Positions 33,125 to 35,792 of a stretch of DNA of 64,000 bases are shown here, piece after piece; the first letter of the stretch is position 1; every line of letters begins with the position of its first letter. Under the pieces are notes generated by a model, which worked only from the letters and a program-made list of their open reading frames with translations, ran no database searches and was not told the DNA's origin. The position numbers were made by a program, and so were the translations under genes. Source of the DNA: Palleronia rufa (GTDB lineage Bacteria; Pseudomonadota; Alphaproteobacteria; Rhodobacterales; Rhodobacteraceae); assembly GCF_000743715.1 (NCBI RefSeq), contig NZ_JQEY01000002.1:77620-141619 (forward strand), read 5' to 3'.

Positions 33125-34378
33125 ATGACCCTGAGCTTTGCCCCGGACGCGATCGAGATGTGGCCGCTGGCCAGGCTCCAGCCCTACGCAAACAACGCGA
33201 AGGCGCATGGCGCGGATCAGGTTTCGAAGATCGCTGCCAGCATGGCGGAGTTCGGCTGGACCGTGCCGTGCCTCGTCGCTGATGACGGAGAACTGATCGC
33301 GGGCCATGGCCGGGTGCTGGCCGCCACGCAGCTAGGGCTGACCGAGGCCCCGGTGATCGTACTGGGGCATTTAACCTACGCGCAACGCCGGGCTTACCGG
33401 ATCGCGGACAACAAGCTGACGGAACTCGGGACCTGGGATGAGGCGCTGCTGTCGGCCGAGTTGAACGATCTGATGGCCGAGGACTACGACCTGTCGCTCA
33501 TCGGTTTCGACGATGCCGAACTCGAAGCGCTGTTGGCTGGTGAGGTCGATCCTGAAACCGCCTCCCGCGAGGGCGAGGACGATGTTCCAGAGGTCCCCGA
33601 AACCCCGATCAGCCGTCCCGGCGATCTCTGGTTGCTCGGCAAGCATCGATTGCTCTGCGGAGACGCGACCGTGGCCACGGACGTCGAGCGACTGCTCGGC
33701 GATGTGACACCGCTGCTGATGGTGACCGACCCGCCTTACGGCGTCGAATACGATCCGGGCTGGCGCAACAAGGCAGGGGCCGCCGCGACCAGGCGCACCG
33801 GCAGGGTGCTGAATGACGACCGTGCTGACTGGCGGGAAGCCTGGGCGCTGTTTCCGGGTGATGTGGCTTATGTCTGGCACGGCGCGCTGCATGCGACCAC
33901 TGTCGCCGACAGCCTTGAGGCATCCGGCTTCAACATCCGATCCCAGATCATCTGGGCCAAGGATCGCCTCGTGCTGAGCCGCGGCGATTATCACTGGCAG
34001 CACGAGCCGTGCCTCTATGCCGTGAAGAAGACCGGCAAGGGCCACTGGGCGGGTGACCGCAAGCAGACAACACTCTGGCAGATCGCGAACAAGGATCAGG
34101 ACGCGGAAACCGTGCACGGGACTCAGAAGCCAGTAGAATGCATGCGCCGGCCGATCCTCAACAATTCAAGCCCGGGGCAAGCGGTCTACGAGCCCTTCAT
34201 GGGATCTGGCACCACCCTGATCGCGGCGGAAACCACCGGCCGCGTGTGCCTCGGGATCGAACTGAACCCGGCCTATGTCGATGTCGCCGTGCAGCGGTGG
34301 CAGCAGTTCACCGGCCAAGAGGCCGTGCTGGACGGGACCGGCGAGAGCTTCGCCGATCTCATGGCCAATCCACGCTGA
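33125..34378 (+). CDS. ParB-domain DNA methyltransferase (N4/N6, beta class)
   Basis: 417 residues. The first about 110 are a ParB/Srx-like domain (LQPYANNAKAHGADQVSKIA, GELIAGHGRVLAA), typical of phage orphan methyltransferases. The catalytic part has DPPY at 202-205 before the SAM motif FMGSGTT at about 358, the order of beta-class amino-methyltransferases. It modifies adenine N6 or cytosine N4 of phage or host DNA. There is no companion nuclease, so it is probably an anti-restriction enzyme. It is followed four bases later by the cytosine methyltransferase. Confidence 0.92.
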   Translation: MTLSFAPDAIEMWPLARLQPYANNAKAHGADQVSKIAASMAEFGWTVPCLVADDGELIAGHGRVLAATQLGLTEAPVIVLGHLTYAQRRAYRIADNKLTELGTWDEALLSAELNDLMAEDYDLSLIGFDDAELEALLAGEVDPETASREGEDDVPEVPETPISRPGDLWLLGKHRLLCGDATVATDVERLLGDVTPLLMVTDPPYGVEYDPGWRNKAGAAATRRTGRVLNDDRADWREAWALFPGDVAYVWHGALHATTVADSLEASGFNIRSQIIWAKDRLVLSRGDYHWQHEPCLYAVKKTGKGHWAGDRKQTTLWQIANKDQDAETVHGTQKPVECMRRPILNNSSPGQAVYEPFMGSGTTLIAAETTGRVCLGIELNPAYVDVAVQRWQQFTGQEAVLDGTGESFADLMANPR

Positions 34379-34382
34379 GGCG

Positions 34383-35558
34383 ATGCATGACCTGGCTTTA
34401 CCTTCCTCCGGACACGGTTCCGGAGTCGGAGACCTGTTCGGCCTCTCGCTCTGCTCCGGCGCAGGCGGGCTCGACCTCGGGCTCACCATCGCCATGCCCG
34501 GTTATCGAACTGTGGGCCATGTCGAACGGGAAACCTACGCCGCGGCCATTCTCGTGGCACGGATGGAAGAGGCGGCCCTGGATCCGGCACCTGTCTGGGA
34601 CGACGTTGGAACCTTCGACGGCCGCCCGTGGCGCGGCGCGGTGGACATCGTCACTGCGGGCTATCCGTGCCAGCCGTTCTCCGTCGCGGGCAAGCGCCGG
34701 GGCGCGGACGACCCGCGCCACCTCTGGCCACATGTCGCGCGCATCATTGGCGAGGTCGAGCCGCCCTTCGTCTTCCTCGAAAATGTCGCCCATCATCTCC
34801 GCCTCGGCTTCCCCGAAGTCGCCGGAGGACTGGTCGGCATGGGCTACCGCCTTGCGACGGGCCTCTTCACGGCGGCGGAAGTCGGTGCGCCCCACAAGCG
34901 CGAGCGGCTCTTCATCCTCGCGCACCGAGCGGACTGCGAACTGGCCGACCCCGCGCGCCTGCTCCGGGACCCGGTCGAGTGGCGGGAACCGGACGGAGCT
35001 GCTGCGGCTCTGGCCGACGCCACGGGCGAGCGCCAACGAGAACCGGCAGACGAAACCAACGCCCTCACAAGAAGCGGGCAAACACGGGATGAACCTGGCG
35101 ACCTCTGCCGCCATGTGGCCAACACCCCAGACCGACAGCTTCCGCAGTCGGGGCGGTGCCCGGAAAAACGAGAAGGGCCTGGACGGGATGGCCCGGGACT
35201 GGCCGACGCCAATGGCGACCGACGGCAACAAGCCGAGCGCGGGCAATCGCAAATCGGCCGACCTGACCAGCGCCAGTCAGATGTGGATGACGCCGACGGC
35301 GCGCGATCACAAGGACGGCGCGACGACATTGGCGAACACACCGGTGAACGGCCTGCTTGGCCGCCAGGTCCTGGTGACGCCGACGGCTGGGAGCGATACC
35401 TCCGAACCGCGCCGGACGCTGAACCCAGCATTCGTCGAGGCGCTGATGGGCTGGCCCACCGGGTGGACCGCCTTCGGCTCTGCGGCAACGGCGTGGTCCC
35501 ACTGGTTGCCGCGCATGCGCTCCGAACTCTTGCAGCTCAATTGCTGGCCGATGGATGA
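34383..35558 (+). CDS. DNA (cytosine-5-)-methyltransferase
   Basis: 391 residues with C5-methyltransferase motifs: I GAGGLDLG (26-33), IV GYPCQPFS with the catalytic Cys96, VI FLENV (E133), VIII RERLFI and a final X-like LCGNGVVPLVAAHALRTL. The variable region between VIII and X is a run of ADA(N/D)G-like repeats in place of a normal target-recognition domain. It methylates C5 of cytosine in phage DNA, probably to evade restriction. The ATG at 34383 lies only two bases from GAGG; a second ATG at 34387 in another frame has better spacing and opens a nearly coextensive frame. Confidence 0.85.
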   Translation: MHDLALPSSGHGSGVGDLFGLSLCSGAGGLDLGLTIAMPGYRTVGHVERETYAAAILVARMEEAALDPAPVWDDVGTFDGRPWRGAVDIVTAGYPCQPFSVAGKRRGADDPRHLWPHVARIIGEVEPPFVFLENVAHHLRLGFPEVAGGLVGMGYRLATGLFTAAEVGAPHKRERLFILAHRADCELADPARLLRDPVEWREPDGAAAALADATGERQREPADETNALTRSGQTRDEPGDLCRHVANTPDRQLPQSGRCPEKREGPGRDGPGLADANGDRRQQAERGQSQIGRPDQRQSDVDDADGARSQGRRDDIGEHTGERPAWPPGPGDADGWERYLRTAPDAEPSIRRGADGLAHRVDRLRLCGNGVVPLVAAHALRTLAAQLLADG

Positions 35559-35571
35559 GGCGCCAGCATGA
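34387..35571 (+). CDS. Overlapping +1-frame ORF across the methyltransferase gene (MTWLYLPP...)
   Basis: 394 codons in the +1 frame, almost coextensive with the cytosine methyltransferase. The start has GAGG six bases upstream and the stop overlaps the next gene as ATGA, both better than in the methyltransferase frame. The second half contains recurrent WPTP/TPTARD blocks (WPTPRAS, WPTPQTD, WPTPMATDG, MTPTARDHKDG) and LNPAFVEALMGWPTGWTAFG, sequence recalled from the C-termini of other phage methyltransferases. The first half is Ser/Arg/Pro-rich, as expected of a GC-rich shadow. It is either a genuinely overprinted gene, a frameshifted C-terminus, or a shadow; evidence favours the second half having coded at some time. 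Confidence 0.35.
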   Translation: MTWLYLPPDTVPESETCSASRSAPAQAGSTSGSPSPCPVIELWAMSNGKPTPRPFSWHGWKRRPWIRHLSGTTLEPSTAARGAARWTSSLRAIRASRSPSRASAGARTTRATSGHMSRASLARSSRPSSSSKMSPIISASASPKSPEDWSAWATALRRASSRRRKSVRPTSASGSSSSRTERTANWPTPRACSGTRSSGGNRTELLRLWPTPRASANENRQTKPTPSQEAGKHGMNLATSAAMWPTPQTDSFRSRGGARKNEKGLDGMARDWPTPMATDGNKPSAGNRKSADLTSASQMWMTPTARDHKDGATTLANTPVNGLLGRQVLVTPTAGSDTSEPRRTLNPAFVEALMGWPTGWTAFGSAATAWSHWLPRMRSELLQLNCWPMDEAPA

Positions 35572-35792
35572 AACAGTCCCGCCTCATGTCGCTGGTCGAA
35601 GCCGTCGCCAATGTGCTTGTCGGCTACGGCGTCGCGGTCATCACGCAGATCCTGATCTTCCCGATCTTCGGCCTGCATACGACGCTGGCGCAGAACCTCA
35701 AGATGGGCGCGATTTTCACCGTGGTGAGCATCGCGCGTTCCTTCGCCCTCCGGCGGGTGTTCGAGGCGATCCGGATGCACAAAGCAGATTGA
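35568..35792 (+). CDS. Small two-TM phage membrane protein (DUF7220-like)
   Basis: 74 residues: MKQSRLMSLVEAVANVLVGY opens a first transmembrane helix (ANVLVGYGVAVITQILIFPIF) and a second follows (MGAIFTVVSIARSFALRRVF). This is the pattern of DUF7220, often found after methyltransferase genes in alphaproteobacterial prophages. It starts in an ATGA overlap with the stop of the +1-frame ORF. Role unknown; a holin is possible by size but unlikely by position. Confidence 0.75.
   Translation: MKQSRLMSLVEAVANVLVGYGVAVITQILIFPIFGLHTTLAQNLKMGAIFTVVSIARSFALRRVFEAIRMHKAD

Follow-up and report, generated by a model that had tools for sequence, protein, structure and literature searches.

Two nearly coextensive open reading frames lie on the forward strand of the window analysed here, a 64,000-nucleotide stretch of Palleronia rufa DNA: frame A (34383..35558, 391 aa) and, in its +1 frame, frame B (34387..35571, 394 aa). 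Frame A encodes the putative catalytic chain of a cytosine-5 DNA methyltransferase, HhaI-like by sequence (PF00145, 1.6e-31; phrog_363, 1.8e-59). Frame B, the candidate specificity chain, under purifying selection in codons 185-335, matches phrog_27243 (1e-12) and phrog_1008 (2e-21), the latter itself labelled DNA methyltransferase; searches of B against Pfam, NCBIfam, PADLOC and PDB gave nothing relevant, neither a family nor a solved structure. Both frames begin in one shared start region (34376..34389, + strand), which holds the upstream TGA (34376-34378), a GAGG (34377-34380) and the string ATGCATG, with the ATG at 34383 opening A and that at 34387 opening B. As a previous reading made from the sequence alone (the sequence-only reading) had pointed out, the GAGG is better spaced for B (6 nt) than for A (2 nt), and B meets the next gene in an ATGA junction (35568-35571), its stop (35569-35571) overlapping the ATG of that gene (35568). 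The start region is highly conserved: ATGNATGAC occurs there in all 103 viral-contig homologues (IMG/VR), in every one of which B starts with ATG, and ATGNATG stands at the start in 77 of 77 bacterial-genome loci. Upstream, the gene of a ParB-like / N4-N6 DNA methyltransferase (33125..34378, + strand; PF01555, 9.8e-22; phrog_498, 1e-153) has its stop abutting the starts of A and B; downstream lies a gene of unknown function (35568..35792, + strand; phrog_4276, 1.5e-26). The context is that of a prophage, with terminase (38500), portal (40736) and head protein (42289) genes all downstream, and no restriction partner was identified for the prophage gene. The same genome holds a second dual-frame copy (G000:C11:7706-8809), whose frame B is 81-83% identical and was matched in two pieces.

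Frame A is laid out as motifs I-VIII, a linker and motif X. The catalytic core (residues 16-185; 34428..34937, + strand) has its motifs at 34452 (CSGAGG), 34665 (PCQ), 34779 (ENV) and 34899 (RERLF), all on the + strand, and the PF00145 match is confined to residues 21-188. The linker (residues 190-355; 34950..35447, + strand) is predicted to be disordered, and motif X follows at residues 356-391 (35448..35555, + strand; RVDRLRLCGNGVVP...), with GNGVVP at residue 368. PCQ, ENV and RxR, as well as G368 and N369 of motif X, are invariant across 62 diverse sequences. The AlphaFold model of A is ordered at residues 16-195 (pLDDT mostly 65-97 in the core) and at motif X, and disordered in between (pLDDT about 30 for residues 197-324), which fits a catalytic chain whose middle acts as a spacer. 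The sequence-only reading had credited A with the full set of cytosine-5 methyltransferase motifs; this held for I, IV (PCQ), VI (ENV), VIII and X, all within the single chain A, but not for motif IX, which is absent from frame A and was placed in B by profile comparison. Aligned as profiles, the A family and a canonical single-chain phage cytosine-5 methyltransferase match over motifs I-VIII only (E 2e-29), and the recognition region, motif IX and motif X of such an enzyme are found together only when both frames are taken into account.

Frame B opens with a short peptide, MTWLYLPP (34387..34410, + strand). In codons 2-8, changes synonymous in A and nonsynonymous in B number 0 against 24 expected, which marks MTWLY(L/I)P as a conserved peptide of frame B, and distant loci have similar B starts (MWLYVP or MTWLYIP). 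A passenger segment follows (residues 9-183; 34411..34935, + strand), in which the amino acids are nearly free and stops are avoided, and then the recognition region (residues 186-341; 34942..35409, + strand), an array of WPTP-type modules. There are five of these in the window, starting on the + strand at 34942, 35011, 35116, 35200 and 35284, plus a degenerate one (VTPT) at 35374; they coincide with the variable recognition region, which falls between motifs VIII and IX. Motif IX (LNPAFVEALMGWPTGWT) is located in frame B, at residues 342-361 (35410..35469, + strand). When the B family (62 sequences) was compared by hhalign with the canonical single-chain phage enzyme, a single match emerged, RRTLNPAFVEALMGWPTGWT on the canonical motif IX LRRLTPLECERLMGFPDEHT, short (22 columns), with an E-value of 4e-4 and a probability of 34%. 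Modelled alone by AlphaFold, B has a mean pLDDT of 40, and its recognition fold is without a confident model.

Selection in the two frames was addressed with 103 IMG/VR homologues, retrieved by A or by B and codon-aligned, in which parsimony-mapped changes were sorted by their effect in each frame and bootstrap intervals calculated; the sample is weighted to close relatives, because retrieval retains the best-scoring loci, and broken copies exist but are few. Over motifs I-VIII (codons 5-180), omega is 0.19 for A [0.12-0.28] and 0.74 for B [0.51-1.03]. Over the target-recognition region (codons 185-335) the values are reversed, 1.02 for A [0.73-1.40] and 0.12 for B [0.09-0.16], and at motif X (codons 361-391) they are 0.10 for A [0.05-0.20] and 0.47 for B [0.23-1.00]. 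Thus, constraint on A lapses along the linker and is regained only with motif X, where it is stronger than in any other segment, and the variable codon position, first A3, becomes A1 (= B3) and then A3 again, switching at the domain borders. Loci collected by frame A alone show the same codon-position pattern, and so does an independent set of bacterial genomes. The comparison of substitution patterns across homologues, proposed with the sequence-only reading as one way to decide between dual coding, a frameshifted product and a pervasive shadow, gives reciprocal purifying selection, and neither outcome that would have spoken against dual coding was seen: stops do not build up in B, and A is not alone in being constrained. 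At the level of sequence, this confirms that A and B are both real, selected coding frames.

Where one frame is free to change its amino acids, it still avoids stops. In codons 5-180, A-synonymous changes that create a stop in B were observed once against 38.9 at a uniform rate, whereas other A-synonymous, B-nonsynonymous changes are 2.2 times as frequent as that rate predicts. For A in codons 185-335, 4 stop-creating B-synonymous changes were counted against 53, the whole class running at 3.4 times. This paucity of stop-creating changes indicates that the free first half of B and the free linker of A are both kept open, the latter because chain A has to reach motif X. In two close homologues (L057:2497-3252 and L065:1178-1885), A stops early in the linker and B is still open. 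The idea that B is a pervasive shadow, open only through high GC content and the codon usage of A, draws on the window gene alone (68% GC), in which the +1 frame stays open in 13% of synonymous-codon shuffles, not a significant result, so that comparison with homologues was required. These, on the other hand, leave the idea with practically no credit. Of 78 homologues collected by frame A alone, 75 keep B open as far as the end of motif IX, and one of the three exceptions (L144) has a premature stop. Low-GC relatives (36-43% GC; L187, L190-L193) keep B frames of 310-456 codons with 0 stops against 6-10 expected, as did 0 of 2000 shuffles; in the upstream methyltransferase gene, conversely, the +1 frame has a median of 13 stops per gene in related loci (minimum 8). 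Finally, the substitution pattern rules the shadow out, since B is the constrained frame in codons 185-335, with an omega of 0.12 where that of A is 1.02.

Overall, we suggest, with a probability of about 0.86, that A and B, in overlapping frames, are the two chains of a single cytosine-5 DNA methyltransferase, A being catalytic and B determining specificity. Chain A, from 34383, would form the large catalytic domain, with motifs I-VIII, a disordered linker and motif X; chain B, from 34387 in the +1 frame, would form the small domain, with its short conserved N-terminal peptide, the WPTP-type modules and then motif IX. The two would be started at adjacent ATGs under one ribosome-binding region, beside the stop of the upstream gene, so that their amounts should be tied. 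A and B would then assemble and methylate prophage DNA, with B setting the target sequence. We infer that B is translated, that A and B form a complex and that this complex has methylation activity. Stop avoidance along both frames, together with the invariant starts (ATGNATG), makes two full-length chains the likeliest products; dual coding, among the options raised beforehand, is the one sustained by reciprocal purifying selection, by stop avoidance in both frames and by the invariant second start.

A programmed +1 frameshift would instead yield a single chain, read in A through motif VIII and passing into B near codon 185, to join motifs I-VIII to the modules and motif IX. It would account for the fact that the selected frame changes near codons 185-190, just past motif VIII; yet, the fused product would be devoid of motif X, the segment on which A is most constrained. 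Moreover, stops are avoided in the upstream half of B and the first seven B codons are frozen, both needless for a mid-gene shift, and in a different type of relative B starts internally, with a Shine-Dalgarno-like sequence of its own. The downstream frame of a frameshift product can do without a start and without being open ahead of the shift, and B has both. We consider the frameshift improbable, since a frozen B start and upstream stop avoidance are meaningful only if ribosomes read B from its start. Only a shade less credible is that A and B are two independent proteins, the function of B being unrelated to methylation by A, for example another DNA-binding or an anti-restriction activity. 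B lacks characterised homologues, both its passenger segment and its repeated modules are out of the ordinary, and Dcm-type phage methyltransferases carry a different overlapping reading frame that has no recognition modules. Nonetheless, the motif IX missing from A is in B, the modules sit exactly where the variable recognition region does, between VIII and IX, and A and B occur together in the phage records examined closely, all of which speaks for the two-chain enzyme.

Under the two-chain reading, the modules of B are the putative recognition elements. The repeated DNA unit behind them, beginning CTGGCCGACGCCA, reads LADAxG in A and WPTP in B, in line with the LADANG and WPTPMAT readings first given for one and the same unit. 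Both frames had then seemed family-like in the second half of the gene; selection upholds this for B, whereas the LADANG look of A is a by-product of the WPTP codons. Multispecific phage cytosine-5 methyltransferases of the SPR and phi3T type carry a series of recognition modules between motifs VIII and IX, in one chain and one frame. The same arrangement of modules is seen here, although they lie in another frame and another chain, and by analogy each may be one recognition unit with its own site. Evidence of exchange comes from Lacticaseibacillus phages, in which the catalytic DNA is 88-97% identical and the recognition segment only 35-72%, identity returning to about 96% in pairs with the same B end; in one member of this clade (L201), module 1 of one type is joined to module 2 of another. 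The drop in identity and this hybrid are the behaviour expected of recognition cassettes, a claim drawn from the Lacticaseibacillus clade only. Across clades, the clustering of WPTP modules in a network (one cluster of 303) was too loose to prove module sharing between distant phages.

How does this arrangement compare with known divided enzymes? M.EaeI is a naturally two-polypeptide cytosine-5 methyltransferase. For M.EcoHK31I, Lee, Kam and Shaw reportedly described in 1995 a small-chain gene within the large-chain gene, in another frame; that embedded reading frame is said to be short, whereas here B, the +1 frame of A, is coextensive with it, the starts are 4 nt apart and both frames are selected. 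M.EcoHK31I, a natural two-polypeptide enzyme, has motifs I-VIII and X in its large chain and IX in its small chain (PMC3404938), the same partition as that of A and B. Its recognition domain, however, was placed in the large subunit by prediction (PMC3404938), whereas here selection places the recognition region in B and leaves it free in A. The repeated, swapped modules and the phage-wide spread of the present locus also set it apart. We file the locus as a variant that would work like M.EcoHK31I, likened to it by motif partition; we do not call it a proven homologue, and the published placement of the recognition domain differs. M.AquI shares the natural split after motif VIII, yet in that enzyme the small subunit holds IX together with X (PMC3404938), whereas here X belongs to A, which is constrained there, and the two genes overlap along their whole length. 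Another unannotated other-frame reading frame in phage methylases is the ShiLan domain of mycobacteriophages, a hidden out-of-frame HNH gene described as a homing insertion, in the third frame and in some copies (PMC11855218); B, by comparison, would be part of the enzyme and occurs in essentially all homologues. The accessible part of that paper (PMC11855218) makes no mention of a +1 recognition chain. An insertion of the ShiLan type was rejected for B, which shows no match to HNH and is not an element present in some copies and missing from others. Among the freely accessible papers searched, none describes an overlapping recognition chain in a phage methyltransferase, and three features appear to be new here: coextensive frames with fused starts, a recognition region built of modules, and the spread across phages.

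All 11 phage records obtained with a B query have the recognition frame in +1 of a methyltransferase with motifs I-VIII and X. They come from phages of Paenibacillus and Mycobacterium (two each), of Klebsiella, Escherichia, Microbacterium, Edwardsiella, Pseudomonas and Porphyromonas, and from phage C72C1. The arrangement is also seen in most loci fetched by catalytic-frame queries, over a GC range of 36-69%, and in the phage records examined closely A and B are always together. Within the 55 loci that catalytic-frame queries returned, the stretch separating motif VIII from motif X (6920 codons) has 67 stops in the +1 frame against 481 in +2; many of those 67 are simply where B ends, and L257, L258 and L260 are canonical single-chain enzymes. 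Two layouts occur. In the first, B starts beside A, as ATGCATG in the window or as ATGTG in low-GC and Synechococcus loci (ATG for B, GTG for A); in the second, the B start lies inside A, at about codons 55-85, and typically follows a GGAG-like sequence; the N-terminus then resembles QLTLFAEDS. Annotation of the two frames varies: both are annotated by the depositors in Paenibacillus phage Arcticfreeze (gp56 and gp57), B is the annotated protein and A unannotated in a Synechococcus phage (L001), and in Klebsiella (L350:1150-2025) and Escherichia (L351:1156-1947) records the entry named DNA methyltransferase corresponds to the specificity chain, with no annotation of the catalytic frame.

A broader proposal, which we rate as slightly better than an even chance, is that many phage cytosine-5 methyltransferases, at present listed as single proteins with an odd LADANG-like linker, would be two-chain enzymes with a modular +1 specificity chain, their specificity being changed by cassette swaps and the catalytic chain tolerating any open linker. 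If true, a large group of phage methyltransferases would have half of its annotation missing, either the catalytic chain (Klebsiella, Escherichia and Synechococcus phages) or the specificity chain (most others), with a bearing on the prediction of phage methylation and anti-restriction. The locus would also offer a clear natural case of one enzyme divided by domain between two reading frames, with selection changing frame at the borders, and a testable idea on how new methylation specificities arise, through cassette exchange in one frame with the other merely a spacer.

Other arrangements were encountered among the loci. L229 has its motif X in +1 and looks AquI-like, and L220 has its motif IX in frame A; these layouts may reflect an AquI-like arrangement, decay or a sequencing error. 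Dcm-type phage cytosine-5 methyltransferases carry a different +1 reading frame (L243:413-863, with the methyltransferase at 179-760; also L247, L252, L257 and L260), which ends like SSKACEGILRRANRRGKVLPKAL and is without recognition modules. Their sequences suggest that this overlap may be a second class of dual-coding methyltransferase gene: in seven distinct sequences, synonymous diversity of the methyltransferase goes from 0.21-0.38 in codons 1-60 to 0.00-0.05 from codon 61.
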